Source: Limonium bicolor (lineage: Eukaryota > Streptophyta > Magnoliopsida > Caryophyllales > Plumbaginaceae). From it: a stretch of DNA of 64,000 nt. Under the pieces are notes generated by a model that was given only the letters and a program-made list of their open reading frames with translations, made no database searches and was not told where the DNA came from. This document shows, in pieces, positions 39,906-64,000 of the stretch (the stretch's first letter is position 1; every line of letters begins with the position of its first letter). Both the position numbers and the translations under genes were made by a program. Location of the stretch: positions 310,001 through 374,000 of the forward strand of contig CM041779.1 of assembly GCA_023374045.1 (NCBI GenBank), given 5' to 3'.

Positions 39906-39906
39906 A

Positions 39907-41159: not shown

Positions 41160-42665
41160 CTAAGAAGTAAACAATGACGGGTACTTCGCCTTCATCTTAT
41201 CTTCCAGCTCCCAAGTGGCCTCCTCAACGTCCTGGTTAGACCAGAGGACCTTCACCAGTCTCACGGACTTATGGCGAGTGTCTCGAGTCTTAGTGTCCAG
41301 AATCCGTACGGGAGTCTCCACTGATCGCATGGTCGGCTCTAAGGTTAGCCTTTCCGGCTGAAGTACATAAGACAGATGAGACATATACTTCTTCAGCTGG
41401 GACACATGAAATACATCATGTACCTTGCCCAGCTCAGTAGGTAAATCAAGTCGGTAAGCTACCAGTCCTATCCGCTCCGTCACAACATAAGGCCCCACAT
41501 ATTTTGGGCTCAACTTGCCTTTCTGGCCAAAACGAAATACTCCCCTCATGGGGGATACTCTTAGAAATACCTGATCGCCCACGGTGAACTCCAGGTCATG
41601 TCTGCGCACATCTGCGTACGACTTCTGTCTATCCTGAGCTGCCTTCATGTTAGCCCGGATCTGGCGAACTTCTGCCTGAACTTGTTCCAGATACTCTGGT
41701 CCTATAATGACCGTCTCACTCGACTCATCCCAGCATAATGGTGTGCGGCATGGTCTACCGTACAAGGTCTGGAAGGGAGACATCTTGATCGAAGCATGGT
41801 AACTGTTGTTGTAGCTAAACTCGATCAGATGTAACTTGTCAATCCAGCTGGTCTGAAAGTCAAGTGCACATGCACGTAACATATCCTCAAGTGTTTGGAT
41901 GGTGCGCTCACTCTGACCATCTGTCTGTGGGTGAAACGCCGTACTCAGCTTAAGTTCGGTACCCAGTGCTTCTCGTGTGGATTTCCAATACCTCGATAAG
42001 AATCTGGTATCCCTGTCAGATACAATTGTTTTCGGTACCCCATGATGCCTTACAATCTCTCTGTCGAAGAGTTCTGCAAGCTTAGCCACTTTCCAGGTGT
42101 CCTTCATCGGTATGAAACGAGCCACCTTGCTCAGTCGGTCAACAACAACCCAAATCATATTCAGACCTCCCCTTGTAGGCGGAAGCCCTACTACGAAGTC
42201 CATAGAAACGTCATGGAACTTCCACTCAGGCACTGGCATTGGCTGTACCATACCACTAGGCCGTCGATGCTCAAACTTGACCTTCTGACAAGTGAGACAC
42301 CTCAACACATAGTCATTTACATCCTTTTTCATTCCAGTCCACCAAAAATATCTTTTCACACCCTTATACATCTTTGAAGCTCTGGGGTGAATCGAAGTAG
42401 TAGAACAATGGGATTCACTCAATATGCGCTCCTTCAACTCAGCGCTACTCCTCGGTATACACAGTCGGCCATTAAGCCTAATCAGGTCATCATCGTGGAG
42501 TCTGAAGTCGTACTTCTGACCCTCGAATGTGCCATCAATAAGCTTCTGTCTAATCTCCATCATATACTGATCCGTCATCTGAGCACTCCGCACCTCTTCA
42601 ACCAAGCTAGAATGAGAGACTAGCGAATGGAGAGAGTGTGCTCGGCGACTCAGTGCGTCAGCTAC
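41160..42665 (-). CDS. pol: Pol polyprotein, 3' part: end of RNase H, integrase, chromodomain (element E)
   Basis: The open frame runs from the insertion point of LTR G to a stop at 41160. It opens with ADALSRR, the end of RNase H containing its last catalytic Asp. Integrase follows, numbered from the Met at 42605: an HHCC zinc site (H66, H73, C103, C106), then the catalytic D136, D197 and E233 with exactly 35 residues between the last two. A GPY/F-type segment (KYVGPYVV) lies near residue 373. The last 60 residues are a chromodomain (PVRILD..., VLWSN...EEATWELE...YPSLF), which in this group directs insertion to heterochromatin. No stop or frameshift is seen. The upstream half of the same protein is at 60858-62747; the split is due only to the nested insertion. 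Confidence 0.93.
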   Translation of the reverse strand, partial: VADALSRRAHSLHSLVSHSSLVEEVRSAQMTDQYMMEIRQKLIDGTFEGQKYDFRLHDDDLIRLNGRLCIPRSSAELKERILSESHCSTTSIHPRASKMYKGVKRYFWWTGMKKDVNDYVLRCLTCQKVKFEHRRPSGMVQPMPVPEWKFHDVSMDFVVGLPPTRGGLNMIWVVVDRLSKVARFIPMKDTWKVAKLAELFDREIVRHHGVPKTIVSDRDTRFLSRYWKSTREALGTELKLSTAFHPQTDGQSERTIQTLEDMLRACALDFQTSWIDKLHLIEFSYNNSYHASIKMSPFQTLYGRPCRTPLCWDESSETVIIGPEYLEQVQAEVRQIRANMKAAQDRQKSYADVRRHDLEFTVGDQVFLRVSPMRGVFRFGQKGKLSPKYVGPYVVTERIGLVAYRLDLPTELGKVHDVFHVSQLKKYMSHLSYVLQPERLTLEPTMRSVETPVRILDTKTRDTRHKSVRLVKVLWSNQDVEEATWELEDKMKAKYPSLFTS

Positions 42666-44984
42666 TGAAATACCCCGAACTTAAATATAGGGATTTAAAA
42701 TTAATCTAATACGTATTTAAGGGCCTAATGGTACCTAATTAATACTGGTAAGGAAAAATAAATCCAAAAGAATAAATAAACGCTTAAAAAGCGGAAAACG
42801 CTAAATAAGCGTTAAATAAACATAGGAGGTATGAGACCTCGGTTAGAGTATTATATGGATCCTAAAGGTTTAATAAGACCTAAATAATATATGGGAATAA
42901 CTTCCGAAGAAAACGGATCTAAATAATATATTAAAACGCTAATAGAGCTTTAACGCACGTTTTTCGAGGAGACCCGAAAACGTGATTTTAAATGATCAAA
43001 CGAACCCGTAAAAATTATAAGTCATTAAATAAATATTATTAAGCATTTATGAAAGCTTAATAACCAATAAAAATAAAGAAACAAGAAAATTCCGGAAAAC
43101 GGGTTCCGGCTAGTAAAAACTGTCAAAAACGGGAAGTTGTGGGGTAGAAACATAAATAACGCAAACTTATGTGTCCACTTTTGAAAATAAAAATGTGAAA
43201 TCTGTGTGTGTGCAGTGGGGGTCCGATTTTTAAGGCCTCTCACACTCTCTCACACACTCACTTACTCATTTACAAAACAACAAAATAATAAAGTAACTCA
43301 CATTACTACTTTACTCTCACACTCTCTCTCCTATCTCTATTCTCTTCTCTCACGTAACAACCCATCCCCCTCACTCTCTCAATTTCTTCTCCTTCTTCCC
43401 AGCGACAACAATGGAGACTTGAGCCCCTCACAAAAAATACTCACTTCTCTTCTCTTGTTACTCCATCAAATCTCCTCCAAAAATCACAAAAAGTATACCG
43501 TTGTGTTCCTCTCATCAAGGAGAACACTAGCCTCTTTTCCAAAATTCGCAAACAAGCATTTTTGTTTTCATGGGTATGGAGCATTTGGAGTTTCAAGACC
43601 ACCATTAGAACCACCTCCTTCTCCTTGTCGTTTTGAGGTAAAAATATTCTTGAAACCTCTTTGTTTTTCTATCCGTATGGGCAAAACGAAATTTGAGCTA
43701 AACCCTTGCTTGCTCCTTGTGTATCTAGCCGATTTTGGCATTGTTGGTGGAGCTGAAATCTTACTCTTGAGCCATTCCAAACACTACCTACACCCTTGCA
43801 AGGTAATGAAATTTCTAAACCCTAAAACCTACATTAAAACTTGAAGAATGGTTAAGGATAGTTTTAGTGTATTAAAATGGTGTATTGAAATGTATATGTG
43901 AATGGGTTGTAGTGTTAGAGGATTTGGTTTGACAAAACCGGTGGGAAGAGGAGGAAAAAGAAGGAAGGAAAAAGAAAGAAGAAGAAAAGGAAAACTAGGA
44001 GAAGAACAAGGTAAATTGCACTATCTGAGTAGCCTTGTAAAATGTATTGTATAACAGATTTTAGTAGCTCTTAATGGTGTATTGAAAATGGTAATGAGTA
44101 GTAGTGTAATGTGTAAGAGAATCCAAATGTTTTAAACCCTTGAAAGACATGTAAAAGCTTACTGAAACCTAGATGGGAATTGAATGTAGTGTGCAGGAAT
44201 TTTTAAGAGTGCTTAATGTTGGTATTAGTGTATGAGAGCTTGTATATTATTGCTGTTTTGAAATAGGTGAAATGGCGTAACAAAATGTGAATACATGATG
44301 TGGTGAGAATGTAAGATTTTAGGGGAGGTTATGTCAAAATTTATCTAGAATTAGAACACTTAAGAAAACTGGAAACAAGGTGAAAGCAAGTCCTTGTAAC
44401 AGATTTTAATGTGAGCTGTTTAGTTTGTAGGAATATGTGCATTTATGGATGACTTGGTGAATGGGAGAACCAAGGTGTGTATTGGAGTTAATAGAGATGA
44501 TTAGTAACTATGGAATGGTAGTAGTAGCATGTGAATAAAAGAGTGTAAAATCTGTAGCAAGAAGTGTTAAAACACATTGGAGAAACTAGGAGGAATTAAG
44601 TGTATTTGGAGAACTTATGGTGAGTAGTTTGATACCTTGAAACAGATTTGGAGAAGAGCTAGGTCATGGGATGGAAGTAGGATGGTAAGATGATGCAATT
44701 ATAATGCTAGGAGTGGCATTGGTAGAGGAAGTATTGGATGGTAGAAGTGGGTTCAAAAATCTGAAGCAAGAGAGCAACAAAAATTGTTGCATGTGTTGAA
44801 GAAGAAAGTGAGAAAAATTGTGTAAGTTGATTTAGAAGTGAAAATGAATTTGATGGATGAACTAAGGTGAATTAGAGGATTTAATAGTGTTTAAACATGT
44901 AAGAAACATGTGGAAATGAGTAGGAAATATTGGGTGAGAATTGAGGTGAATTTGGAGTCCAAAGTAGATAATTAAAAGGGGTTC

Positions 44985-45105
44985 TGCAGCCGACCTACCC
45001 AGGCGACCTACCCGAGACGGGTCGGTCGGGCCGAATTCTGTAACTGGGTACTCTCTGCAGCCGACCCACCCAGGCGACCTACCTAGAGTGGGTCGGTCGG
45101 CCTTT
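44985..45105. repeat. CCGACCYACCC palindrome array in LTR G
   Basis: Two units of CTGCAGCCGACCYACCC AGGCGACCTACC with inverted partner GGGTCGGTCGGSC, about 65 bases apart, followed by an AT microsatellite-like stretch (45130-45220). It lies at the same relative place as the arrays of other LTRs. Confidence 0.82.
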
Positions 45106-46883
45106 GTAAAAAAAAATTAAAAAAATTAAATTTAATTAGATGAATATATATAAATACATATGTACATATATACATATATATATATAACATATATACATAA
45201 TATAACATACATATATATATGCATGAGTAAGACGTTAGTGCTAAAGTAATGAAGGTAAGAAAGTTAAGCACACTTGAGTAAAACTAAAGTTAATGGATAA
45301 CGGGGTTAATTACGGGAGTATTAGTTTTACATACCATAGTATCTTAATATTAATAGAACCACTTGAAATGTTGTCAGTGGTTCGAGAACAACCCGAGGAG
45401 TGTGAGGTGACATGGTAAAGTAAATTCCGGTAAAAAGGTATGATTTCTTCATGCCCTGTATCCTAATCTGGTTACCCCGATTTGTGTGCTTATTTGACCA
45501 CCTAATAAGATAAATGCATGAATCGGATTATATTGCACATACTTGTGCTTGTTTACATTGTTCGATATTTGTCTTGAACAATAGTTTGTATAATTCATGA
45601 AATATATGAATGATGATGATGTGTAATTGTACCTTGTAGTGTACTTGTATATTGTATTGTATTGGTATGGATGTGTATATGAATAATGTATTTGTGTATG
45701 TGGTTGGATGTTGACTTCTACTAATTCCTAACTACCTAACTTCTAACTTAAGTGAGTAAATTGGAATGAGTAGAAGTCCGATATAGCTTCGGCCACGCGT
45801 GAGGATGCGGAGTCACAAGAGGTTGGCTGCAATTCCTGACTCTAAAACTGGTCCGCGGCCCAAATCCCTTAAATGGGTAGCATCCCGGATTGGTGAGTCA
45901 AGTAAATCCCGGAGGTGGGACGGAGTAGTCCCCAGGGCCGGAGGTCCCGACGACTTAACTTGAGTAAGAGTAAGAGTAAGTAAGTATGGATCCGTAAGTA
46001 TGTATGAGTATGAGTATGTATGCGTATGTGTAACACCCCTACCGGTAATCACACCATTATCCTCTGACCTGTCTCATATATCAACTACAACGCAGCGGTA
46101 ATTCCAACTCAAACGGGGGTGAAACAATGCCGTTAGTCACCCACGTGACTAACTAGGCCAATCCAAACTCAATCACAACAATAATTACAATATCGGTCTG
46201 ATGGGTCTTATACCGAGTACACTAACACAAACGCTACTTCCGATACTTAACCAATTCATAAACCAAATACAACCTTCAAATCCAATTTATACAAATACCA
46301 TCTCCATTCAAAACTATACCGAGTATCTACAATTTCCCGAGTGCATCCATGACCTTGCGGGTCTTACATCCCACAATATACAAATACAATTGCTTTAACA
46401 ACTACCCATATCATTAACAACCCCGTCCTACTCTCGAACGGTGTCCGGCTTAGCTGTCGGATCTTACAGTGATCATATTCGCTTCGGGTACCTGCACACT
46501 AAAAACGTTCCCCCTAGGGGGTCAGCTTACGCTGAATATGACTTCCGCATACCCCGCGTACTAGCGAGGGTACGCCGACTAATTGGTCGAGAGCATGCGG
46601 TTCATTTTATTTCAAACAGCATGCAAGACAACAAATATTATATTTGTATGTCAACACAATCACAGTTCAATATTGAACACAAACACTAACACACACAACA
46701 AGAGGTTAGTTTCGTTTGTTTTATGCTTAGGCTTCGAGGTTATACCTCACTATGCCTCAATTCATTCTACATTGTCACCCACTCATTCGGGTTACACTTA
46801 CTCAAATTCTCCTACACTTAGTCTCAAACTCAATAATCAAATTGCAACTCAAGTCTAAACTCAATACTCAATACTCAAGGTCT

Positions 46884-47060
46884 CAATCAATACTCAATGC
46901 ACAAGGGCAACTCAATCAATACTCAATGTACAAGGCAACTCAATCAATACTCAATGCACAAGGCAACTCAATCAATACTCAATGCACAAGGGCAACTCAA
47001 TCAATACTCAATGTACAAGGCAACTCAATCAATACTCAATTCACAAAGGCAACTCAATCC
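46884..47060. repeat. 28-base minisatellite in the 3' LTR of H
   Basis: Six copies of a unit close to CAACTCAATCAATACTCAATG + YACAAGG. The open frames across it result from the unit lacking stops. Confidence 0.9.
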
Positions 47061-48247
47061 AACAAGCGCAAAGTTCACAATCACCAACCAAGGTTCGACC
47101 TCAATCAACTTCACAATGGGTTAGCCCAATCAGCATCCGGGTTAATCGGATGTCATTATCTCAATACTCAAGATCATCAACTCAAACAAGACCAAGTCCT
47201 CCTCAATCAATTTTCCTTCTCTTTCCAATACTCAATGTTAAGTCGGTATGACCTCCGGGCAGGGATAAGGCTATCCCACCACCGGGCTCAAAGTTGGCTC
47301 ACTTAACCAGGTTGCTACCCATTTAAGGGGTTTGGACCGTGGAAAAGATTATAGCCAGGAATCGGTTAACAATCTCTCTTGCAACCTCATCCTCACGCGT
47401 GGCCGAAACTATATCGGACTCCTCAAATTCTCCCAAGTGCTCCAATCCAAATTCTCAAAGTTAGAATGTTAGTTGGTTAGGGAGTTAGTGAGAAGTCAAC
47501 AACAATATTCAAACTTCCACAATCATACAACAATTCAATCAAGGTTACCATAACCAATCAAACCACACTTCACTTACAATCACAACCCTCCAATTCATCC
47601 ACAACTCAACCAAGGCGTCACACTCTCGACTAGTGAGAAGAGCACATTAACGTCTAAGACATCATCCACAAACAAGGAATAATACCTTACACAACATGCA
47701 ACAAGATATGCATACGCCTCATCCTTATCCATTCATTTCATGAATTATACAAACAAATGTTCAAGGCAATATAGCAAGAACAAAATAGAACAAGCACAAG
47801 TAGGTGCATTAGAATCCGATTCGTGCATTTATCTTATTTAGGTGATCAAATAAGCACACAAATCGGGGTAACCAAGTTAGGATACAGGGCATGAAGAAAT
47901 CATACCTTTCACCGGGGTTAACTTTCCTAGATGTTCTTGCGTTCCTCGGTTCACACTCGTTCCTTATGTCTTGCTCTTGAATCACTATTTACATGTCAAA
48001 CGATTCAATTAATATTTAAACACTACGGTAGGTGCATAATTGCTACTCCCGTACTTACCCCGTTATCCCGTTCTTTCGGTTTAACTTAATGTACTTAGAC
48101 TCACAACTATCTCAATCACTTCCAACCTTTGTATATACTTCTTAGGACCTTTAAATATCATCAAACAACTCCTAAACAACTTCTAAAACCAATACCATTC
48201 AAACCCCCATCATTTAAAGCCTTAAAAACACTTCTTGTTGAATTCTG

Positions 48248-48425
48248 GGGGTGGTCCGGGACCTGGTCCGGACCCTAGGTCCCGGACCAATACTGCTGCT
48301 AACTCTCGGCCATATTTTCATAGGTGGTCCTGGACTTAAGTCCCGGACCAATTCCTGCATTTGCTCTCGGCATGTTTTTAAGGGGTGGTCCGGGACTTGG
48401 TGCATATCCTAGGTCCCGGACCCTG
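48248..48425. repeat. GGTCCGGGAC palindrome array in the 3' LTR of H
   Basis: Three units, GTGGTCCGGGAC with AGGTCCCGGACC, in AT-rich surroundings. The twin array at 57737-57920 carries an extra partial unit (TTGGTCCTGGAC), showing that copy number changes quickly. Confidence 0.88.
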
Positions 48426-50563
48426 CTAAAACCTGCTACAAGGGTGATTTTTCACCCCCTAATCAATCCATAAACCACCCTTAATCTTTTCCTAATCTTC
48501 CCACAAGTTTTCTACACATTTTAACACCTCAAAACACTCCTTAAACCACCTCAAATCCTTGGTTAAATTCCTACTTCAATTCTTGTTCAAATCCAACAAT
48601 TCAAGCCCTCACATTTTGCATTTGGCACTCCTTTGCATTTCTAACTTCTCCTTGCTAGTTTTTACATCTTACCAAGCCTACCAAATCCTTCAATGACCAT
48701 ACCAATCCATTCCTAGATATACCCCATTCTAAAACCCAAGTCCAACTCTCATTTCCTAAACCTTGCACACTTGCTCTTTTCTAGTTTTTCCCAAAGCATT
48801 CCAACATTTATTTGCTACAGATTTTTACCTCCTTTCCTCTAGTTCTCCAAATGCCATTTCAAGGCTATCACTCAACTCTAAACAACACTACAAACACCTA
48901 AGTTCTCCAATACACGAAGTCATCTTTAAACACTTGTTTTTCTACCAAAATTTTGCCATAACCTCCCCATAAACCTTACATGTCCAAACATCTCTTTTTC
49001 ACCATTTTCAATCCTAAACTAGCCTCACCCTTGCAAGGGTCCTACCAGCACATAAGCTCAATTCAAAATTCACCAAACAACAATATAAACACAAATCTCA
49101 CAACATTTGGCTCCAAGGCCCTTAATTCACAACTCACCCCACAAATCTACTAATTCTCAACCAAACACACTATCACACATATTTTGGGTTCACTATTTTA
49201 AATTAACCCTTCCCAATTCCTAAAGCAATTACAACAAGGTTTAAGGTAGATTTCTTACCTTAATTTACAAGTCTCTCCTTAATCCTCCTCTTGCTCCTCA
49301 TCTTCTCAAATTTGGTCAAGTGGGGATGGAGTTGCCAAACTCCATCCCAACATTCAAGAAACACCAAAAATGCATTCCATTAATCAACTAAACCCTCAAG
49401 AAATCCTAAATCAATGAAAGGGCTTAAAATACAAAGTTAGGGTTTTTACCTTTGGAATGTTCAAGAGGGGTTTTCACCCATGAATCAAAGGGAAAAAACT
49501 CCACCACCATTGGAGAGTTGAATTGGAGCTCAAAAATCAAGAAGAAAACAAGGCATTACAAGAGGGTAAAAATCGGTCACCAAAGGAGAAGGAAGAAAAA
49601 TGAGTTTTTCTTGAAGATTTTTACCTTAGGAGAGAGAGGAGACTCCAAGCTACCCATTGGTGCTATTTTCTCTTCAAATGGGGAAAACCCATGGAGATGA
49701 ACTTCTTCATTTTTGGATTTTGAAAAGAGAGAAGTGTAGAGGAGGACGAGGGGAGTTCAAATATGTGATTTGTTTTGCATTTGGAGCTTGGAGAAAGCTT
49801 GGGCAAGCAAGGAAATGGCAAGAAGCCATGGGAGAAGAGGAAGAAATCGGCTGGAACCAGAGGGGAAAGAAAAACGGTGAAGGAAGGAGAAAGAGAGGAA
49901 AGAGAAAAGGAAGGGAGAAATGAGGGAGGAGAGAGAGGGAAGTTACTTTTGTAACTTTTCCCCTTTTTGCTTTTCTTCTTCTTTTATTTAATTAGCTAGC
50001 TAGTAATAGAGAGGGCTGCTCACTTAATAAAAACCGGCCCACTTAAATGTTACAAGCTGGAGCGTTTTTCGTCTTTTACAGAAAACGCTCGTTATTTTAC
50101 CCGGTTTAGCACTATTCACTAACCGGGCCCGTTTTCCGGAATTTTCTCGTTTCTTTAATTTTAATGGCTATTAAGCTCCCATTAATGTTTATTTATAGTT
50201 ATTTAATGAACTATAATTTTTTACAGGTTCGTCTGGCCACTTAAGGTCACGTTTTCAGGTTTTCTCGAAAAACGTGCGCTAAAGCTTTATTAGCGTTTTA
50301 ATTCATTATTTGGATCCGTTTTCATCGGGAATTATTCCCATATATTATTTAGGCATTACTAAGCCTTTTAAAAATTTAATACCCTCTCTAAGGTCATTTT
50401 CTTCTTACGGTCGCTTAACGCTCAATTTAGCGTTTTTCGCTTTTTAAGCGTTTTTCTTATTTCTTTTGGATTTATTCGTTTATCAAAATTCCTTAGGCAC
50501 TAATAGGCCATCAATACCGTATTAGAGTAATTTAATCACCCCAATTAAGTCCGGGGTATTTCA

Positions 50564-50579
50564 ATCTACCCCCCTTAAG
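50564..50579 (-). promoter_or_regulatory. Polypurine tract of element H
   Basis: On the minus strand CTTAAGGGGGGTAGAT directly precedes the 3' LTR start. Confidence 0.88.
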
Positions 50580-51069
50580 AACTTTGTCCTCAAAGTTGCT
50601 CAAGGTTATAGGATTACGATACTTGCTCATACATATATGCCTAATACCAAAGTCATACATTCTTCCTCCTCACAAATCCCCAAATCCGTTACTCAAAGTC
50701 TGTACATACCATTCCATACCTATGTACCATAATCACTCACATCCGCATTGCATCCAACAAACTGGTTCCACATCACAAAATTTATACATACATACATACA
50801 CACAAAGCTATCCCCAAAACAATGCAATACACATTACAATCCCGCAGGCACTCCGGTCATATAGACACAGGACTCCTCTATGTCCTGCTGCCCTTGGAAT
50901 AATACAATATGATACACTACCACCGTTCTCCGGCATGAACTTTCAACAGGTTCTCAATCCCCAGTCTAAGGGCAATTCCTTCACAACTACTAATTAGAAA
51001 TCTTTCTAAAAACACACAACCCAGAATTCCAATTTGTATTCCTTACTTCTGTCCTATTGGTGATTCTTG

Positions 51070-51198
51070 TGACCACTTGAGGGGAGCTTCAAGAATCATT
51101 CGACCCTGATGTGATCAGCATCAGTGTTGAACTATCTTTCCACCCCAATTTGTGTTCGGTTTCCCTTGATCTGATCAGGATCAAGTTCGACTTCCCAC
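51070..51198. other. Conserved non-coding block shared by elements F and H
   Basis: About 129 bases with few differences from 37421-37548, much better conserved than the surrounding internal sequence. It includes TGATGTGATCAGCAT and a TGATCTGATCAGGATCA inverted repeat, so RNA from either strand can fold. No reading frame is maintained through both copies. Confidence 0.55.
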
Positions 51199-54100
51199 AT
51201 CCATTTCAAACAATCAAATAACTGATTATGTCCATTTTCTATCTTCTTAATCTTTCTAGTCATACTCATACGACCATACATTACCAATTCCTAAAATTCA
51301 TTTATTCATTACTACTCATACCATCAACTATTGCTCCATTAGCCTTATCATCAATTGTTACTTAATTACTTCCCACTACTTACCTAAGAAGTTCAAAGTT
51401 AGTCTCCAATTAGTTTTCCTATACCCAAATTGTTCACAAATAAAATCAATTTCCATCCTCAATCATTTACAAGAAAATCAAATCAACTCAAGTCACCTAG
51501 GGGACTCAATTCCCACTAGGCTCAACACCAGTTTCATACCAATTTATGCTCATCAAACTCTTCAAACATACTCATTTCCCAAGTCATTACCAATCGGGGT
51601 TCTCATTCCCCATGGAGTTTCTCTACTCCATTCACCTCAAATTTCTCACAATCAATACTTCCTCCCACCTCAAATCTCACAATCAACCTTAATCACATTA
51701 AGAATGGTTACATATGTTTATGTAACATAAGTGCCAATCATCACAACAAATACTTTTGCGCTATGCGCATTGTAGTTTACGCCCTATCACGTAAAACATA
51801 CATTCCGCTGTTTTCGCCCTACCCCCCTTAAAAAGGGATTACGCCCACGTAATCTACCATGTGTCAACATCGGACATAGGTGTAAGGCGTCTAGCCGTCA
51901 CGGAGTGGTTCGACTTCCATGCGGTCTATTATACAATGGTCTTTGGTCAGAGGGTATTAACCATATTATTGGTTAGTCCCTGCACCAAGAATTCTCATCG
52001 GAGTTGTTTAACTTTTAACCAGGTTCGGTTCTAGCCTTAGAGGCATCAAGGCTTTGATAATTATCCATTCATTCGCTAGGTGTATCAAACCTTTAGAATT
52101 TGGGCCCACTAGCTTCTGCTGCGCGACCCTGATAACTTAGAATTTGCCCTTCTCGTTATCCTTAATTTGTTATACATCATCCTTTTATCTCTTTATGTTG
52201 GGAATAAGATTTATCAATCAAGCGTGGTATTCTTCTACCGTACGCGAATTCAATGAGCTTCGGATTCTCTATCCAGCTCTTTAGGAATCTATATACATAC
52301 TGTTGTATATTTTCGTGGTTATGCACTTGATCCCTCTGACTTATTGTCGGTTGAGGTTGAGCCGCTACTTAGTTGTAATGCTTCCTCTAATGTCAGTAGC
52401 TTATGAATTATGACCTTGCATTTTCTATGCTTCGGTCCTTATGACTTCGTACATTTCCTTCTACCTATTGCCAGAATTGTCATCTTCCCAACTTTCTAGC
52501 TATCCCACTCAATCATTACTGTGCAAGTGCAATACCAAAACACTCAGTCCTACAGAGTGCAGAGGCGTAAACCCCTGGGCAGTAAATCTGTTGTGAGATT
52601 GCAATAGGAATGAATATTGCTTCCTTGTTACTCGGTCTGTCTACCATCTTTATTGATCAACTCCATAACATTGTGACTTATTCTCATATATTGGCCGCTT
52701 GCTGCGCACCATGTTCGTATTTATTTACGACATCGGTTTTCATGGCATCCGCTATTACCTTAGCTTCTGCTCATGTATCTCTACCATTTACACAATGGTT
52801 CACCATTTATTTGGTTGGTTATAGCATATGACATTCTTCCCTATTTTTGGGCTCCTTGAGCGTTATTTACTTATACTACATGTTTCCAACCTACTGTGTT
52901 TCTTCTGAACTGGTTACTCCTTGGTTTTCAACAATTGTTATAATAGCTTATTTCCACATTGCTTGGCAATACTGGCATGCTCAAAATTCACTACATTAGT
53001 AGTTCCGAAAGAGATATATTATCAGATATTCACTGATGGTATTCCCTTCTTGGCATCTATGTGTTCACTGCTCTTGCGGTCTCACATTAATGAGGGGTAT
53101 CCCTGCTCGTTGGTTGTTAAACAATCTTACTGGTGCCGTTCTTGGCAACTCTTCGTATGATTCACAATGGGTTTGCAACCGTTCGAATATGTATTGTAGT
53201 AGTTTCATGGCATAGCAGCCTTGTTGCCTAGAGCTCTGCTCATTATAGGCGGTTTACATATGATTACTTTTCCTATACCATTTAAATGGTTGGAGGTAAC
53301 ATTGGGTTCCTTGATAGGATCAGTGCATCACGCTTCCGTCCGTTGGATGCCCTTTATGTGTCTTGGTACTGATTGGTACCTTCCAATAACTCAGGGAATC
53401 CCTTGTGTAAGTGGGATCCCTTCGGTTTTTAACCGAGTCTTTGTTGTAATTCTTGTGTTTTTATCACGACATGTAGTCCTACACCCTTTAAGGATTGCCC
53501 TGGGTGTTGCTAAGTTATGCCATTACCTCTGGCTAACAAAAGAGTATGTTTGGTTTACTCCGCATCGCGGTTCGGATCTCAAATTGTCCCATTAAGGGTT
53601 ACAGCGTCTCCCGTTCTTAGGGTAGAACACTGGTGCTTTTCCTTATGTTTATAACCGGTTTGATGCCTCCTACAATAGTGAACGGTATCCTCCGGTACCT
53701 TAGATGATCACTATGGGTATTTCATTTTGCTCCTTGAACCTTTATATGTTCGTGGTAGGCGTTGCCTTACTGTGTTTAAACCGGGTATCCATTCCGGCTG
53801 TTTCATGCTTTTTGTTTCAAATTCTTGTGACATTTCCAATGTCTTTGGTCAATTACCAGTGCTTCTCGCACATTTTAGCTCTTAATCGTCCTCCTAGAAT
53901 GGATTCTTGACTCCTTTAGCTTGTAAGCTAATCTGGGGTCCTTCGATTATTTGAGGTACTCAACTGTTTCGGTTTGCATTTACCTTATGGTCCGTAGAAC
54001 GGAGCTGACTACTTCCCGTGTTTCGAACACTACATGTATACATACGTGGGGTACCTTATTGGTACGTTACCACTTACCTGACCAACTCACAAAAGGGTCT

Positions 54101-55503
54101 GTCAGGCCCACAAGCTCCTTCGGAGTGCAGTTGTCCCACATCCCGTATTTGGGTACACTCGTAGTGCTCGTCACACGCCTAGGTGAAGTATTCTATTGTC
54201 AACTCCTCTTGTATCACTATATGATACTCACCGTGATCCTTCTGGTTTGGTTTCAAAATATGAGGTTTTAAAAGAAAAGTTTTGTAGTTTTTGAAAGAAA
54301 AATTCCGGGTTTTGAAATAGAAATCTTGAGTCTGACAGAAATCCTTATGGCATTGCCATGTTCGAAGTCTTTGACCAAGTACAGCTTCCTGCTGACTGGT
54401 ATGTTCGTTAATATCATGGTCGGGCCGTTAGGCCTTTCCAAGGTTGATTCTGCAATTCCTTAGGATTAGTGATCCTTCATTTGCTTCCGTTGTCATGGTG
54501 GTACTTAGAAAGTACTTGTTAGTCATCTAGAGGTCTTCCAATTGTTTTGTTGTTGCTGCACTTGCCTTGGCAAGTGCGCGGGTACGTCGGTTTTTAGGTT
54601 AACAAACACCGGTTACGGTGCTGTTTCCATCCAAATTTGGTGATTTTATTGGGCCTTCCTGTGATCTTTTGATCTTGGTGATCAATCTCCTGAGTAGTCT
54701 CTCAATGTTCTTGACAAGGTTGTCGTTAATTCGGGTGCTTCCCGATCCTTGTGGTACTCCATGTACCTTGCTCCATGGCTTGTTCCCACATTTGGCGGTG
54801 GTTACCGAGGTTTGTTTAATCCCTAGGAACTACGTCGTAGTCCTGTTGGTGTGAGTTTCATGAATATCCTCATAGTTGTCTGCACTATGCTATTCGGGTA
54901 TTACCGCTCTTTTGGCGTTGTAGGTTTGGAGTTAATCCAACCTTGACTAATTCCATAGTCGGTTTGTATACCATAGTGGTATTATCAAGCGTTGCAATTC
55001 GTAGACTCTTTGTCTCGGGTTTTGTTACTCCGTCTTTTGCCTTATTGCGTGGCCATGCTTCCCTTCTTGTTGGCTGCACATGGTTCTCGCGACTGCGAAG
55101 CACGTCGCCCCATGGTGCCGCAAATTTCATTGTCCTTTAGTTAGGATTCCTCAATCTGTTGCCGTTTAGTGCGGTTATTATCGTTGAAACGGGAACCGTC
55201 TTCGGGATTTCCAGTTCTTGGGATCTACCGTATGACTGGTCCTTTCTCTTTACAAAGTTTGTTTACAGCTGCCAGATCGGGTTTTCCCGAGTATGAGAGG
55301 TCTTTCCATCTCCCTGGCGTTCTTTCCCCAACTTTAAAACGGGGGTTGCGGAGGGCGGGATTGGCTATGTAGGCATCCAGATCACACTGGAAGTTCCTAA
55401 CTAGCGTACCTCACAGCTAACACTCAACCCTTAGCCCTAAGTCTCTAATTCCTAACTCGGTATTTTCCTAAACTCGGTATTCAGACCATCAGAGCGATAC
55501 TTC

Positions 55504-55515
55504 GCTCTGATACCA
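55504..55515 (-). promoter_or_regulatory. Primer-binding site of element H (initiator tRNA-Met)
   Basis: On the minus strand TGGTATCAGAGC lies five bases after the 5' LTR end. It matches the 3' end of plant initiator tRNA-Met, the usual primer of this group. It overlaps a perfect inverted repeat, ATCAGAGCGA (55488-55497) and TCGCTCTGAT (55502-55511) with a 4-base loop, so most of the PBS can be hidden in a hairpin. Confidence 0.88.
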
Positions 55516-56369
55516 CTTTTTGTAACACCCCTACCGGTAATCACACCATTATCCTCTGACCTGTCTCATATATCAACTACAACGCAGCGGTAATTCCAAC
55601 TCAAACGGGGGTGAAACAATGCCGTTAGTCACCCACGTGACTAACTAGGCCAATCCAAACTCAATCACAACAATAATTACAATATCGGTCTGATGGGTCT
55701 TATACCGAGTACACTAACACAAACGCTACTTCCGATACTTAACCAATTCATAAACCAAATACAACCTTCAAATCCAATTTATACAAATACCATCTCCATT
55801 CAAAACTATACCGAGTATCTACAATTTCCCGAGTGCATCCATGACCTTGCGGGTCTTACATCCCACAATATACAAATACAATTGCTTTAACAACTACCCA
55901 TATCATTAACAACCCCGTCCTACTCTCGAACGGTGTCCGGCTTAGCTGTCGGATCTTACAGTGATCATATTCGCTTCGGGTACCTGCACACTAAAAACGT
56001 TCCCCCTAGGGGGTCAGCTTACGCTGAATATGACTTCCGCATACCCCGCGTACTAGCGAGGGTACGCCGACTAATTGGTCGAGAGCATGCGGTTCATTTT
56101 ATTTCAAACAGCATGCAAGACAACAATATATTATATTTGTATGTCAACACAATCACAGTTCAATATTGAACACAAACACTAAACACACAACAAGAGGTTA
56201 GTTTCGTTTGTTTTATGCTTAGGCTTCGAGGTTATACCTCACTATGCCTCAATTCATTCTACATTGTCACCCACTCATTCGGGTTACACTTACTCAAATT
56301 CTCCTACACTTAGTCTCAAACTCAATAATCAAATTGCAACTCAAGTTCAACTCAATACTCAATACTCAA

Positions 56370-56548
56370 GGTCTCAATCAATACTCAATGCACAAGGCAA
56401 CTCAATCAATACTCAATGTACAAGGCAACTCATCAATACTCAATGCACAAGGCAACTCAATCAATACTCAATGCACAAGGGCAACTCAATCAATACTCAA
56501 TGTACAAGGCAACTCAATCAATACTCAATTCACAAAGGCAACTCAATC
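56370..56548. repeat. 28-base minisatellite in the 5' LTR of H
   Basis: Six copies of the same unit as at 46884-47060, with a one-base deletion in the third copy and a one-base change in spacing. Confidence 0.9.
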
Positions 56549-57736
56549 CAACAAGCGCAAAGTTCACAATCACCAACCAAGGTTCGACCTCAATCAACTT
56601 CACAATGGGTTAGCCCAATCAGCATCCGGGTTAATCGGATGTCATTATCTCAATACTCAAGATCATCAACTCAAACAAGACCAAGTCCTCCTCAATCAAT
56701 TTTCCTTCTCTTTCCAATACTCAATGTTAAGTCGGTATGACCTCCGGGCAGGGATAAGGCTATCCCACCACCGGGCTCAAAGTTGGCTCACTTAACCAGG
56801 TTGCTACCCATTTAAGGGGTTTGGACCGTGGAAAAGATTATAGCCAGGAATCGGTTAACAATCTCTCTTGCAACCTCATCCTCACGCGTGGCCGAAACTA
56901 TATCGGACTCCTCAAATTCTCCCAAGTGCTCCAATCCAAATTCTCAAAGTTAGAATGTTAGTTGGTTAGGGAGTTAGTGAGAAGTCAACAACAATATTCA
57001 AACTTCCACAATCATACAACAATTCCATCAAGGTTACCATAACCAATCAAACCACACTTCACTTACAATCACAACCCTCCAATTCATCCACAACTCAACC
57101 AAGGCGTCACACTCTCGACTAGTGAGAAGAGCACATTAACGTCTAAGACATCATCCACAAACAAGGAATAATACCTTACACAACATGCAACAAGATATGC
57201 ATACGCCTATCCTTATCCATTCATTTCATGAATTATACAAACTAAATGTTCAAGGCAATATAGCAAGAACAAAATAGAACAAGCACAAGTAGGTGCATTA
57301 GAATCCGATTCGTGCATTTATCTTATTTAGGTGATCAAATAAGCACACAAATCGGGGTAACCAAGTTAGGATACAGGGCATGAAGAAATCATACCTTTCA
57401 CCGGGGTTAACTTTCCTAGATGTTCTTGCATTCCTCGGTTCACACTCGTTCCTTATGTCTTGCTCTTGAATCACTATTTACATGTCAAACGATTCAATAA
57501 ATATTTAAACACTACGGTAGGTGCATAATTGCTACTCCCGTACTTACCCCGTTATCCCGTTCTTTCGGTTTAACTTAATGTATTTAGACTCACAACTATC
57601 TCAATCACTTCCAACCTTTGTATATACTTCTTAGGACCTTTAAATATCATCAAACAACTCCTAAACAACTTATAAAACCAATACCATTCAAACCCCCATC
57701 ATTTAAAGCCTTAAAAACACTTCTTGTTGAATTATG

Positions 57737-57920
57737 GGGGTGGTCCGGGACCTGGTCCGGATCCTAGGTCCCGGACCAATACTGCTGCTAACTCTCGGCC
57801 ATATTTTCATAGGTGGTCCTGGACTTGGTCCTGGACTTAGTCCCGGACCAATTCCTGCATTTGCTCTCGGCATGTTTTTAAGGGGTGGTCCGTGACTTGG
57901 TGCATATCCTAGGTCCCCGG
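57737..57920. repeat. GGTCCGGGAC palindrome array in the 5' LTR of H
   Basis: Counterpart of 48248-48425 with one extra half-unit and several point changes. Confidence 0.88.
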
Positions 57921-60387
57921 ACCCTGCTAAAACCTGCTACAAGGTGATTTTTCACCCCTAATCAATCCATAAACCACCCTTAATCTTTTCCTAATCTTCC
58001 CACAAGTTTCTACACATTTTAACACCTCAAAACACTCCTTAAACCACCTCAAATCCTTGGTTAAATTCCTACTTCAATTCTTGTTCAAATCCAACAATTC
58101 AAGCCCTCACATTTTGCATTTGGCACTCCTTTGCATTTCTAACTTCTCCTTGCTAGTTTTTACATCTTACCAAGCCTACCAAATCCTTCAATGACCATAC
58201 CAATCCATTCCTAGATATACCCATTCTAAAACCCAAGTCCAACTCTCATTTCCTAAACCTTGCACACTTGCTCTTTTCTAGTTTTTCCCAAAGCATTCCA
58301 ACATTTATTTGCTACAGATTTTTACCTCCTTTCCTCTAGTTCTCCAAATGCCATTTCAAGGCTATCACTCAACTCTAAACAACACTACAAACACCTAAGT
58401 TCTCCAATACACGAAGTCATCTTTAAACACTTGTTTTTCTACCAAAATTTTTCCATAACCTCCCCCATAAACCTTACATGTCCAAACATCTCTTTTTCAC
58501 CATTTTCAATCCTAAACTAGCCTCACCTTGCAAGGGTCCTACCAGCACATAAGCTCAATTCAAAATTCACCAAACAACAATATAAACACAAATCTCACAA
58601 CATTTGGCTCCAAGGCCCTTAATTCACAACTCACCCCACAAATCTACTAATTCTCAACCAAACACACTATCACACATATTTTGGGTTCACTATTTTAAAT
58701 TAACCCTTCCCAATTCCTAAAGCAATTACAACAAGGTTTAAGGTAGATTTCTTACCTTAATTTACAAGTCTCTCCTTAATCCTCCTCTTGCTCCTCATCT
58801 TCTCAAATTTGGTCAAGTGGAGATGGAGTTGCCAAACTCCATCCCAACATTCAAGAAACACCAAAAATGCATTCCATTAATCAACTAAACCCTCAAGAAA
58901 TCCTAAATCAATGAAAGGGCTTAAAATACAAAGTTAGGGTTTTTACCTTTGGAGTGTTCAAGAGGGGTTTTCACCCATGAATCAAAGGGAAAAAACTCCA
59001 CCACCATTGGATAGTTGAATTGGAGCTCAAAAATCAAGAAGAAAACAAGGCATTACAAGAGGGTAAAAATCGGTCACCAAAGGAGAAGGAAGAAAAATGA
59101 GTTTTTCTTGAAGATTTTTACCTTAGGAGAGAGAGGAGACTCCAAGCTACCCATTGGTGCTATTTTCTCTTCAAATGGGGAAAACCCATGGAGATGAACT
59201 TCTTCATTTTTGGATTTTGAAAAGAGAGAAGTGTAGAGGAGGACGAGGGGAGTTCAAATATGTGATTTGTTTTGCATTTGGAGCTTGGAGAAAGCTTGGG
59301 CAAGCAAGGAAATGGCAAGAAGCCATGGGAGAAGAGGAAGAAATCGGCTGGAACCAGAGGGGAAAGAAAACGGTGAAGGAAGGAGAAAGAGAGGAAAGAG
59401 AAAAGGAAGGGAGAAATGAGGGAGGAGAGAGAGGGAAGTTACTTTTGTAACTTTTCCCCTTTTTGCTTTTCTTCTTCTTTATTTAATTAGCTAGCTAGTA
59501 ATAGAGAGGGCTGCTCACTTAATAAAAACCGGCCCACTTAAATGTTACAAGCTGGAGCGTTTTCGTCTTTTACAGAAAACGCTCGTTATTTTACCCGGTT
59601 TAGCACTATTCACTAACCGGGCCCGTTTTCCGGAATTTTCTCGTTTCTTTAATTTTAATGGCTATTAAGCTCCCATTAATGTTTATTTATAGTTATTTAA
59701 TGAACTATAATTTTTTACAGGTTCGTCTGGCCACTTAAAGTCACGTTTTCGGGTTTTCTCGAAAAACGTGCGCTAAAGCTTTATTAGCGTTTTTAATTCA
59801 TTATTTGGATCCGTTTTCATCGGGAATTATTCCCATATATTATTTAGGCATTACTAAGCCTTTTAAATCAATTTAATACCCTCTCTAAGGTCATTTTCTT
59901 CTTACGGTCGCTTAACGCTCAATTTAGCGTTTTTCGCTTTTTAAGCGTTTTTCTTATTTCTTTTGGATTTATTCTGTTTATCAAAATTCCTTAGGCACTA
60001 ATAGGCCATCAATACCGTATTAGAGTAATTTAATCACCCCAATTAAGTCCGGGGTATTTCAGTATGTATGAAGTAACGAGTAAAAGAGTAATCTCCACCC
60101 GATTAACCCGGGTGGACCAATGAAGCTAACAAGTATTGTATGTTGTGTATGTAATGTGTATGCGTAATTCGGGAAAAGGTAAGTATGTATTGGATGGTTT
60201 ATGTTGTACTTCTTGTATGCAATGAAGTGTATGTATGTGTGTATGCCTTGCGTAATGTATTGTAATATTGTGTATAAGAGCATGTATGCATGTATGTTTG
60301 TATGAAAATGAACTGCATGTATTCGACCAAGTGGTCGGCGTACCCTCACTAGTACGTGGGGTATGCGGTTATCATGCTCGGCGAAAG

Positions 60388-60421
60388 CTGACCCCTTCGG
60401 GGGACATTTTTTAGTGTGCAG
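60388..60421 (+). other. Conserved GC stem-loop plus T-run in LTR G
   Basis: GCTGACCCC-TTC-GGGGGACATTTTTTAG then TGTGCAGGTA. It is the same structure as at 3471-3497 in A1 despite different flanks; the loop has changed but the stem is kept. Confidence 0.5.
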
Positions 60422-60857
60422 GTACCCAAACGAATATGGTCAAGGAAGAGACCGGAGGCACACCCTTGTATTTAGAAGTAAGTAGCGTGTGAGGAACGGG
60501 TAGTAAGTAGCCTCTTAGTGAGAATGTATGCACTTGGAAGAAGCATTGTAATTGTACTGGAACCTAGTAAACTCGGTTATGTACTTTGTATTGTATGGAT
60601 TACGAAGGAGTAAAGTATTGAATGGAATCTTGTAGTATTCATTTGATGAATGGAGTATGTGTCGTGGAAGTGTAGTACTCGGGATTCCGGTCCATCAGAC
60701 CGATGCTGTAAGTAGAAGTAGTAGCCTTGTTAGTCACGTGGGTGACTAACGGCATTGTATCACCCACTGTATGTAAGTATGTATCCGCTGCGTGTATCTG
60801 ATGTGTAAGGAGATTGGACGGTAAGCATTGTATTAATGGTAGGGGTGTTACAGCTAC

Positions 60858-62747
60858 CACATTGGCCTTACCCTCCTTATATTGCAGATTAATGTTGTAG
60901 TCATTTAGAAATTCAACCCACCTTCTTTGTCTCATGTTCAACTCCTTCTGAGTGAACAAGTACTTTAAACTCTTGTGGTCAGAATAAATCGTCACACTTA
61001 CCCCATACAAGTGATGTCGCCATATCTTCAATGCGAAGACTATGGCACCCAATTCTAAGTCGTGGGTAGGGTAGTTCTCTTCATGCTTCTTCAGCTGTCG
61101 GGAGGCGTATGCTACGACCTTCCCGTGTTGCATCAACACACAACCCATACCTCTGCCTGATGCGTCGCAATAGACCTCAAAACCATCTGGACCGTCTGGT
61201 AATGTCAGGACTGGTGCAGATGTCAGAGCATCCTTGAGACTTTGGAAGGAACTCTCACAGTCGACTGTCCACTCGAATGGTGCATCCTTCTTCATCAAGG
61301 AAGTCATCGGCTTCGAGACACTGGAGATGTCCTTCACAAACCTCCTATAATAACCTGCTAGACCAAGGAAGCTCCTGATATCGGTAACTGTCTTCGGCCT
61401 AGGCCAGGTGCGCACTGCATCTATCTTTGCCGGATCAACAGCGATCCCGGCCTCAGAAATCACATGACCAAGAAAGGATACTTGGTTCAACCAAAACTCA
61501 CACTTCGAAAATTTAGCATACAACTGATTCTTTCTCAATGTTTGCAACACACTTCTCAGGTGGCTTTCGTGCTCACCTCTCGATTTCGAGTATACAAGTA
61601 TATTGTCGATGAAGACTACCACTGACTTGTCCAACTGATCTTGGAACAAGCGGTTAATTAAGTCCATGAACTTGGCTGGTGCATTGGATAAACCAAACGG
61701 CATAACCGTAAACTCATAATGTCCATACCTTGTTCTGAATGCTGTCTTCTCAATATCACTATTACGGATGGCAATCTGATGGTATCCGGATCGTAGATCT
61801 ATCTTGGAGAATACTGATGCTCCCCTCAACTGATCAAATAGGTCGTCGATGCGTGGTAAAGGGTAACGGTTCTTTACCGTAACTGCATTCAGTTCTCGAT
61901 AGTCAATACACAAGCGGAGGCTACCGTCCTTTTTCTTCACGAAGAGGACCGGCGCTCCCCATGGTGAAACACTCGGGCGGATAAATCCCTTGTCGAGTAG
62001 GTCTCTCAGCTGCTCCTTGAGCTCTGTCATCTCTGCTGGAGCCATACGATAGGGCGCCTTCGCAATTGGTCCGGTGCCCGAAGCCAAATCAATCTCAAAC
62101 TCCACATCCCGTGTTGGCGGCATGCCCGTCAGTTCCTTAGGAAATACATCAGGAAACTCTAACACTACCGGCACATCAGGACTAAACTCTGGGTCTGTTT
62201 CTATGTCCTGGACATAGCAGAGGTATACATCACTCCCTCGTCGTAGTTCACGACACATAGCCATGGCGGTGATGATCTGAGTCGAAGGCTCCCTGGGCCT
62301 CTGGCGGAAAGATATAGTAACCCCAGATGGACTCCGAAGAAGCAGGCGATGCTCGGCACACAGGATTCTGCCCTTGTACCGCTCCAACCAGTTCATCCCG
62401 ACAATTACATCAAAACCAAGTCCGTCGAACTCTATCAGGTCGATCGGGAACTCTTCATCTCGGATTCTTACAACAACACCTCGGTGGTAGCGGGTACACT
62501 TGATCCGCTCTTTCGACGGGAGAGTGACTAGGAAGTCTGGCATCTCATCACCGTCTAACCCCAGCCTCTTCGCAATGGATAGCGAAATAAAAGTATGTGA
62601 GGCTCCGGAGTCGAACAAGATCGAAGCGTCCACGCCATTGACTGGAAAGGTACCGGTGAGGATTGTGCCGCTCTTGCCGGCTTCTGCCTCATTGCAGACA
62701 CTCAGTATACCTCCCGTTCCGAGAGCACAGCCTAATTCATTGGCAAA
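60858..62747 (-). CDS. pol: Pol polyprotein, 5' part: protease, reverse transcriptase, RNase H (element E)
   Basis: The open frame follows a TAG at 62748-62750 and is uninterrupted for 630 codons until LTR G cuts it after KANVVA. Protease: [11 protein letters not shown], with the catalytic DSG at about residues 46-48. Reverse transcriptase: [42 protein letters not shown]; its active site reads FIDN (61602-61613) instead of FIDD, so the second catalytic Asp has become Asn, and this copy is probably inactive. RNase [17 protein letters not shown] and YSDHKSL supply three acidic residues; the fourth (ADALSRR) is on the far side of LTR G at 42665. There is no Met before the protease, so the frame must be joined to upstream sequence by splicing or recoding. 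The 41160-42665 segment is the continuation. Confidence 0.93.
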
Positions 62748-62909
62748 CTAATAAGTATTGGGTAACAACACGGTTGGTATACTTCAAACAACTCCACTTT
62801 ATTCATTAACACACTCTTTTTACAACATTCGTTGGCTTATACTGTCGCCATAATTAACACTTACAACATTCTTAACATGCACTCAACACATCACATAATT
62901 ATACAAGGC
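62748..62909 (-). other. Spacer between the AlkB-like ORF and pol
   Basis: AT-rich, with stops in all frames. Its 3' end on the minus strand reads TTGTTACCCAATACTTATTAG directly before pol frame residues FANELG, a plausible splice acceptor. That would let a gag-to-pol mRNA skip the AlkB ORF. No matching donor is certain. Confidence 0.4.
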
Positions 62910-63572
62910 TTAAAACGGTCTGAAGGTCAAATTCAAACGTCCGGGTTTCATGTGTGTGGCATTGATCACTGCCGATGGTGCGGTATTCAGTTTGATCTTC
63001 TTGATGCCATGGTATAGCATCCTTGACTGCCCACCCATGATTAACACGTCTCCTGATTTCAACACTAGCTTCTTTGCGAGATCAGCACGCTTCTGCTCGC
63101 CATACACAAACACTGCGGTGTCACCAACGGACCAAGACACCACGGGTACTCCCTTACTTAGAGACTCGGGCGACTCGTCCTTGTCTTGGTGTAACCCTAA
63201 CCGTCCACCATTCTGGTAGAAGTTCACAATACACAGATCTACTTTCACATTGGGAATTGAATTCGTTTCAACTTGTTGAGCAATTTCCACGACGTGGTTA
63301 ACGACCGCAAGGAATTCCTCAGGTATACTTGGTACAGTTGCTCCATCTTCAGCTCGCACTTCTTGATATGTGTTGGTGTAAGGGTTCCAGTCCTTACCCA
63401 TGCACATCATCTTCAATTTCATTCTTGATCCGCTCGGGTATTCTGGTGTGTAGAAACCTCCAGGTGTTGCTCCAAGTTCATTGCATCGTCTGATGATGTG
63501 GATTTGTGCCTCCGGTGTCAGGTATCCATTTAAGAGTATCATACCTGGCTGGATAACCTGACATTGCTCCAT
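62910..63572 (-). CDS. AlkB-family 2-oxoglutarate/Fe(II) dioxygenase, captured by gypsy element E
   Basis: 220 codons, no introns, no stop or frameshift. AlkB enzymes oxidatively remove methyl groups from nucleic-acid bases. The full catalytic set is present: HQD with His128 and Asp130 (LGLHQDKDES), distal His188 (MLYHGIK), and Arg212 and Arg218 in GRLNLTFRPF for 2OG binding. A nucleotide-recognition lid lies before residue 100 (PGGFYTPEY..., KLKMMCMGKDW). Similarity in wording is greatest to plant ALKBH1-type proteins ('PGM.LL..YL', 'CIVNFY..GRLGLHQD', 'SGDVLI.GG.SR'); other AlkB members score less by eye. The frame is open upstream to about 63671, so translation could start earlier or be fused by splicing. 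It lies between gag and protease, in the same frame as pol but separated by stops. Domain call is near certain; substrate (m6A, m1A or DNA 6mA) is unknown. Confidence 0.93.
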   Translation of the reverse strand: MEQCQVIQPGMILLNGYLTPEAQIHIIRRCNELGATPGGFYTPEYPSGSRMKLKMMCMGKDWNPYTNTYQEVRAEDGATVPSIPEEFLAVVNHVVEIAQQVETNSIPNVKVDLCIVNFYQNGGRLGLHQDKDESPESLSKGVPVVSWSVGDTAVFVYGEQKRADLAKKLVLKSGDVLIMGGQSRMLYHGIKKIKLNTAPSAVINATHMKPGRLNLTFRPF

Positions 63573-63783
63573 TGGAAAGTCGGTGATGCCGATGGTAGTT
63601 TCTTCAGGGTTTGGTGTGGGTGGGATTGGATAACATATATTGAAGGTTCCTTTAAGTTTAGAGTTATCTAATTAGGTGACTTTCACACTATACTTTAATT
63701 GTTTACTCACATGGTTGTTTACTTAAACTCACTAACACACATGCATGAAATGCGGCATGCAAACACTTATTTCACTCAACAGT
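63573..63783 (-). other. Spacer between gag and the AlkB-like ORF
   Basis: AT-rich 211 bases. On the minus strand it has GTGAGTAAAC (63710-63701), a consensus-like splice donor, and CTAATTAG (63675-63668), acceptor-like, but they are too close together to form an intron with each other. From 63671 the AlkB frame is open. No CCHC zinc-knuckle coding is seen. Confidence 0.4.
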
Positions 63784-64000
63784 TTAGGCGGTACCGGGTC
63801 TAGAAGAGGGCCCTGGCGCCTCAGACCGGTCCACCACATTCAGGGCGGCCTTGCCGGACCCCGACCCCTTCCCCTTCTGGGAATCTGTGTACCTCTGATC
63901 TGGGGGTGGCTGATTCGCCGCCTTCGGGCCATCGGTGGTCGCAGTGGCCTTACCCTTCCATTGCCCCTTAGGCCTGTAGTTTCTACTGTTCGGGTTCTGC
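63784..64000 (-). CDS. gag: Gag C-terminal part (element E), 5' end outside the window
   Basis: The frame enters from the right edge and ends TAA at 63784-63786. Seventy-one codons of basic, Gly/Ser/Pro-rich sequence (NPNSRNYRPKGQWKGK, KGKGSGSGK, ending PSSRPGTA), the kind of linker that precedes the zinc knuckle in Tekay-type gag proteins. The zinc knuckle itself (CX2CX4HX4C) does not occur before the stop nor anywhere up to the protease. The frame differs from that of AlkB and pol. Identification rests on composition and position, not on a domain. Confidence 0.6.
   Translation of the reverse strand, partial: QNPNSRNYRPKGQWKGKATATTDGPKAANQPPPDQRYTDSQKGKGSGSGKAALNVVDRSEAPGPSSRPGTA

Follow-up and report, generated by a model that had tools for sequence, protein, structure and literature searches.

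An ALKBH1-type AlkB gene under purifying selection between gag and pol of an abundant Ty3/gypsy retrotransposon family in Limonium bicolor

An abundant Ty3/gypsy retrotransposon family in the genome of Limonium bicolor carries a complete AlkB open reading frame, apparently of the ALKBH1 type, between gag and protease, and this frame is under purifying selection. We consider it likely that the encoded enzyme demethylates adenines of the element's RNA or DNA copy and thereby aids escape from host control. In essence, AlkB protein would be made from a transcript of the element, it would strip the methyl marks off adenines of the RNA or of its DNA copy, and the demethylated element would avoid decay, sequestration or silencing.

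The window, by which we mean the whole 64-kb stretch of DNA analysed (C4:310001-374000, within a 2.92-Gb assembly), contains a single AlkB copy. On the minus strand of its right end, a gag tail is followed by the complete AlkB frame and then by the protease, reverse transcriptase and RNase H portion of pol:

63784..64000, minus strand: 3' part of the last gag exon (the tail past the zinc knuckle), identified by translation, with a TAA stop at 63784-63786
62910..63671, minus strand: AlkB ORF, 253 codons from stop to stop, with HxD, distal His and RxxxxxR intact
63572-63570, minus strand: first ATG of AlkB, with 220 codons from there
62798..62803, minus strand: AATAAA in the AlkB-pol spacer, about 107 bases past the AlkB stop, a possible poly(A) signal
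60845..62747, minus strand: first part of pol, comprising protease, reverse transcriptase and RNase H (domains RVP_2, RVT_1, RNase H)

These ORF coordinates and Pfam domains confirm the one-strand order of the original prediction, which read the end of gag, a complete 220-codon AlkB and then protease and reverse transcriptase. The AlkB frame matches Pfam 2OG-FeII_Oxy_2 (PF13532) with an E-value of 8e-49 over residues 43-251, covering the profile completely. The catalytic motifs that the prediction had named are likewise in place: in a 27-row alignment H161, D163, H221, N150 and Y152 are invariant and R245 and R251 nearly so, giving the full complement of Fe and 2OG residues. Chance can be excluded as the origin of the frame on the strength of this E-value, of out-of-frame dN/dS controls, and of recurrence in other copies, both of which are described below. 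The AATAAA of the spacer recurs in all 30 of the copies ranked by AlkB, and is perhaps a remnant of the 3' end of a captured mRNA or else a working poly(A) signal.

The copy in the window is itself a broken one, with the remainder of the element scattered to the left of the AlkB frame:

42666..60844, plus strand: nested insertion breaking pol, with GTAGC repeated on either side
39924..42665, minus strand: remaining pol sequence and the start of the 3' LTR, 94-98% identical to copy A; the LTR starts TGAAATACC at ~40848
~30813-39923: further interruption within the 3' LTR
29600..30812, minus strand: end of the 3' LTR (GGGGTGTTACA), end position approximate

Only the 3' LTR is in view, and homology of gag to two other copies, A and B, stops about 535 bases past the window. 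Because pol is cut at 60845 by the nested insertion, and because its reverse transcriptase has FIDN in place of the FIDD of copies A and B, the sequence makes it very unlikely that this copy is autonomous. Within the nested insertion, two direct repeats of 4.5 kb with 99% identity (46029-50563 and 55521-60061) are probably the LTRs of a young element, judging by sequence.

Better preserved copies elsewhere supply the full architecture of the element, and the first of them is delimited at both ends:

C7:20900773-20914551: copy A, 13,779 bp

Its LTRs measure 3,888 and 3,561 bp, start with TG and finish with CA, and are flanked on both sides by a 5-bp target-site duplication, GCCAG. A primer site, TGGTATCAGAGC, which we take to be of the initiator-Met type, follows the 5' LTR, and a purine tract precedes the 3' LTR; the pair of LTRs asked about in the original prediction is thus present together with the accompanying landmarks. 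Identity between the two LTRs is 96.9% over 3,168 columns, 99.4% over 171 and 97.8% over 228. Copy B displays, in order, Retrotrans_gag (PF03732, 1.4e-18), RVP_2, RVT_1, RT_RNaseH, Integrase_H2C2 and a Tf2-1-like SH3 domain. Gag with the order protease, reverse transcriptase, RNase H and integrase in copy B, and protease, reverse transcriptase and RNase H in the window copy, place the family in Ty3/gypsy. A chromodomain match in copy B (PF00385, E = 2.4e-4) falls at 21.4 bits, under the Pfam cut-off of 25.1, and a zf-CCHC_3 match in its last gag exon (0.0024) is likewise under its cut-off. By its sequence the element looks like a chromovirus, perhaps of the Tekay clade given its sequence features.

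The nature of the AlkB protein was approached through sequence comparison, structure prediction and phylogeny. In sequence it matches rice ALKBH1 at 2.7e-68, E. coli AlkB at 3e-22 and human ALKBH1 at 1.6e-10, and no ALKBH5 entry appeared at E <= 0.001 in the same comparison. An AlphaFold model (pLDDT 89.4) finds its best structural match in rice OsALKBH1 (5xoi), with a TM score of 0.92 by target length and 47% identity (47-48% across 5xeg and 5xoi); E. coli AlkB chains come next in the ranking, with TM 0.81-0.88 by target length, and zebrafish ALKBH5 reaches 0.51 by target length. Sequence and predicted fold thus agree in assigning the protein to the ALKBH1 type, closer to ALKBH1 than to ALKBH5, and the original claim of an ALKBH1-like domain within a Ty3/gypsy element is borne out by the rice matches. 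The predicted fold and catalytic residues are those of plant ALKBH1 proteins (OsALKBH1 and ALKBH1C/1D-like), but the long N-terminus found in many host ALKBH1 proteins is missing. An intron-free capture of AlkB from a host mRNA is plausible from the sequence.

Protein searches with the element AlkB, from which the best 120 of 913 and best 120 of 1,470 matches were examined, placed four unnamed proteins (P0001-P0004) at the top of those listed; they are 59-70% identical and their longest contigs run from 1.2 to 26.6 kb. The listed matches that follow stand at 43-52% identity, and those with names are plant ALKBH1-like proteins. A tree was built from five element AlkBs and 120 listed protein matches, 125 rows in all, and in it the element AlkBs and P0001-P0004 are split from the other 116 rows, host ALKBH1 included, with SH-aLRT 100 on a branch of 1.05 that drew a long-branch warning. 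These four proteins are perhaps derived from related elements in other plants. One Artemisia annua protein, P0241, was considered by score as an element AlkB and rejected, as it carries the domain twice. In IMG/VR two stretches fitted the pattern, and neither was confirmed as a relative.

The original prediction had reckoned with AlkB being confined to one copy, or lying beside different elements, and had asked whether the order gag-AlkB-pol recurs in many copies. A genome search with the AlkB protein returned 53,268 first-look candidates, unverified and hence no exact copy number, from which the best 150 were scored; AlkB identity is 92-100% in every one of them, and the frame is stop-free in 134, a proportion raised by a ranking that favours intact copies. 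Given this bias, loci were also chosen by protease alone: 46,187 first-look candidates, again unverified, yielded 150 scored loci, and the best-scoring 30 were read. AlkB sits directly upstream of the protease in 29 of these 30 loci, in a set that is still tilted to well-kept copies and whose reach ends short of element relatives with a more diverged protease and no AlkB. The exception, L053, has unrelated sequence past the spacer. Among the 29 AlkB-bearing loci the frame is open in 7 and broken in 22. Six loci with 52-71% AlkB identity (L043, L052, L054, L055, L060 and L066) were considered as another type of AlkB and rejected; frameshifts account for the low values, the copies being 91-96% alike at the DNA level. 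As a separate observation on the assembly, 23 matK-like stretches, many with stops and most on large contigs, seem to be plastid DNA moved into the nuclear genome. A matK on contig C1175 shows 95% identity to Limonium carolinianum across 81% of the query, and the top two of at least 120 matches come from Limonium.

Whether the frame has been maintained for its product was addressed at first by dN/dS, which for the 30 best AlkB matches is 0.14 in frame and 1.27 and 1.76 in the other two frames, a first look drawn from a ranking that favours conserved proteins. For that reason a comparison of shared with private variants was used in its place. Shared variants were those in three or more copies, copy B served as the reference, and 28 of the 30 protease-picked loci entered the comparison, leaving aside L053, which is without AlkB, and L041, which is copy B itself. 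Shared variants comprise 30 nonsynonymous to 53 synonymous changes, one of the shared variants being a stop, as opposed to 98:49 among private ones (p = 9e-6, in a test that takes no account of how the copies are related); variants found in two copies (18:14) were set aside. Without selection 2.6:1 would be expected for AlkB, given the transition bias that the calculation assumes. Because the shared variants are mostly synonymous and the private ones are not, AlkB is under purifying selection, and the dN/dS near 1 that the prediction had associated with a passively captured gene finds no counterpart in the shared 30:53.

The AlkB-ranked copies, from which two-copy variants were again left out, tell a similar story, with shared AlkB variants at 20:57 and private ones at 65:54 (p = 1e-4). 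Here pol provides a control, having played no part in the ranking: its shared variants stand at 24:87 and its private ones at 352:134, a ratio of 2.6 where 2.5 is expected without selection. For the last gag exon the corresponding counts are 20:28 and 57:29. Shared ratios of AlkB and pol show no difference in this set (p = 0.49), from which it follows that active lineages have maintained AlkB to about the same degree as pol, and that individual copies decay after insertion. These data also bear on the reading in which the element picked up a host ALKBH1 cDNA and has since carried it without use. The 22 broken frames among 29 are what such passive carriage would leave behind, but the excess of synonymous changes among shared variants and the presence of AlkB in all but one of the protease-picked loci make it very improbable.

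The RNA of the element is spliced within gag, and the spliced RNA is sometimes copied back. This conclusion rests on precise loss of introns in individual copies and on genome-wide matches to a spliced junction. Of the AlkB-ranked copies, 28 can be read at gag intron 1 (TTGCAG/GTAAT...AG/GAGTGC, slashes marking the splice points; about 90-100 nt), L001 and L003 being unreadable; 26 of these 28 contain the intron, whereas L015 and L021 lack it exactly. Intron 2, of about 80 nt, occurs in 28 of 30 copies, with precise loss in L002 and L015. Both introns lie no more than about 1 kb ahead of AlkB and emerged from a comparison of L002, L015 and L021 with L004. With up to 3 mismatches allowed, 504 places in the genome match the spliced junction of intron 1, as opposed to none for a reversed control, and the two junction loci that were read, L071 and L072, are both gag of the AlkB element, complete with intron 2 and the gag donor.

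How AlkB itself comes to be expressed is a less certain matter, and two further sequence features enter the discussion:

63668..63794, minus strand: putative intron of 127 nt between gag and AlkB, phase 1 at both ends
62731..62732, minus strand: putative second acceptor, AATTAG/GC, phase 1, which would link gag in frame to pol and leave AlkB out

The most likely route would be an RNA spliced onto the AlkB acceptor, from the gag donor or from some other. One specific version of that route makes AlkB an alternative exon within a gag-pol intron, such that a single donor could be joined to the AlkB acceptor, giving a Gag-AlkB fusion that enters the particle, or to the pol acceptor, giving Gag-Pol, or could stay unspliced and give Gag. 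The putative donor reads CCAG/GTACC in most other copies and CCCG/GTACC in the window copy, the AlkB acceptor reads CTAATTAG/AT, and its AG is kept in all 30 AlkB-ranked copies; donor and both acceptors share the same phase, so that the fusions are open. The stretch between gag and AlkB is also intron-like in composition and variable in length, with a mean GC of 35.5% compared with 59.6% in the gag exon and 45.7% in AlkB, and a span of 126-130 nt, in the AlkB-ranked copies. Such a scheme draws further support from the proven splicing of gag, from the lack of an ATG near the start of pol, and from Ogre elements, which link gag-pro to pol by partial splicing according to the accessible part of PMC6317226. 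However, a spliced Gag-AlkB junction has no match in 2.92 Gb with up to 3 mismatches allowed, all 26 readable protease-picked copies retain the gag-AlkB stretch, and L012 has lost the AG of the pol acceptor. Since the same tool returned 504 junctions for intron 1, we treat Gag-AlkB splicing as a rival reading and not as established. Either the element does not use this splice, or the resulting RNA stays out of the particle, and the second possibility would hide the junctions from a genome search; as matters stand, we regard the alternative exon as rather unlikely.

Translation of AlkB alone, from the ATG at 63572, is possible though doubtful. In that case a subgenomic RNA, or re-initiation after gag, would yield a 220-residue enzyme. 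The ATG lies just ahead of the conserved domain, the catalytic core begins after it, and every AlkB-ranked copy has an AATAAA downstream, as noted above; pre-ATG shared variants are few (3 nonsynonymous, 3 synonymous) and dN/dS there is 0.31, as against 0.13. Yet homology to plant ALKBH1 begins about 24 codons upstream of the ATG, with FNIC answering to FDIC of the host proteins, and this ALKBH1 homology in the 32 codons before the ATG hints at a start further upstream, as does the lack of gaps in those codons among AlkB-ranked copies, a set whose ranking favours such copies. For the orchid element discussed below, ORF2 is presumed to be expressed separately from Gag-Pol (PMC9289625). A parallel question attaches to function, as AlkB might be a repair enzyme that fixes m1A and m3C alkylation damage in the element's RNA, not an eraser of regulatory marks. 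E. coli AlkB chains being the next structural matches after OsALKBH1, and RNA repair having been proposed for viral AlkBs (PMC9289625), this is conceivable; the nearest relatives among the listed matches are nevertheless plant ALKBH1 proteins, with a proposed 6mA role, and we hold it the less probable account. Returning to the demethylation of adenines as regulatory marks, the substrate we would favour is RNA, with m1A or m6A as the mark and the transcript or the packaged genome as its carrier, over 6mA of DNA, because an RNA genome is what retrotransposons have in common with AlkB-bearing RNA viruses. The DNA 6mA reading stays open because OsALKBH1, the nearest characterised relative, has been proposed as a DNA 6mA demethylase whose loss raises 6mA in rice (PMC7758401, in its accessible part).

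The closest precedent is the Gypsy_Pa_2799 family of Phalaenopsis, described by Alvarado-Marchena et al. in 2022 as Ogre/Tat elements with a 2-ODD/ALKBH5-like ORF2, whose AlkB demethylated m6A in vitro (PMC9289625). A screen of 121 angiosperm genomes in that study found the domain in LTR retrotransposons of two Phalaenopsis species only (PMC9289625). The paper is cited in the accessible parts of PMC12786077 and PMC11963269 and, apart from these two, is the sole report of AlkB in LTR retrotransposons among the best-ranked matches in the open-licence literature. The best-ranked matches in that literature, which excludes bioRxiv and most subscription journals, include no earlier report of a Limonium gag-AlkB-pol family. 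The doubt voiced in the original prediction, that such elements might have been described already, was therefore partly justified: an AlkB-bearing gypsy element has been published from orchids, but with another AlkB subfamily and AlkB position and most likely of another lineage.

Both families are multicopy plant Ty3/gypsy elements with an added AlkB-family ORF and intact Fe/2OG residues. Gypsy_Pa_2799, however, has an ALKBH5-like domain where the Limonium element has an ALKBH1-type one, and places it in a second ORF of 565 aa beside a gag-pol that forms one ORF, whereas in Limonium AlkB lies between gag and protease. The orchid element is also larger, at ~25 kb compared with 13.8 kb for copy A, has a tRNA-Arg primer site in place of TGGTATCAGAGC, and belongs to Tat/Ogre, most likely a different lineage from the chromovirus-like Limonium element, which for its part has gag introns and a host in Caryophyllales as opposed to orchids. 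Given these differences in AlkB subfamily, position, primer site, size, host and most likely lineage, the Limonium AlkB looks like a capture independent of the orchid case.

Other known systems share single features with the Limonium family. Plant RNA viruses of the Alpha-/Betaflexiviridae and Closteroviridae carry AlkB domains (PMC9289625), and in both settings the AlkB is encoded by the mobile RNA genome itself; the element AlkB has plant ALKBH1 proteins as its nearest named matches among those listed. Spliced RNA is known from other plant LTR elements, with an intron between gag-pro and pol in Ogre (PMC6317226) and a spliced Gag RNA in BARE (PMC3735527), as far as the accessible parts of these two papers describe them. 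Compared with what those parts relate, the Limonium introns proved by precise loss sit inside gag, and the putative gag-pol intron would hold AlkB.

At its boldest, the case can be put as one in which a chromovirus captured an ALKBH1-type demethylase independently of orchids, as an exon of its gag-pol intron, and would make Gag, Gag-AlkB and Gag-Pol by choice of acceptor, with the eraser carried in the particle and tens of thousands of candidate copies to show for the payoff. Taken as a whole we judge this picture distinctly unlikely. The significance of the family can be stated in more modest terms. A single AlkB-bearing retrotransposon could be an accident; the second comes from another plant order, another AlkB subfamily and most likely another element lineage. 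Besides AlkB, introns within the gag of a gypsy element, together with copies that have lost them exactly, are new. The family forms a testable system, its natural copies being numerous and the AlkB frame open in some and broken in others. That in a second case AlkB is selected about as tightly as pol, in the single comparison of the two, suggests that methylation of adenines, on RNA or DNA, is a real front between plants and their retrotransposons.
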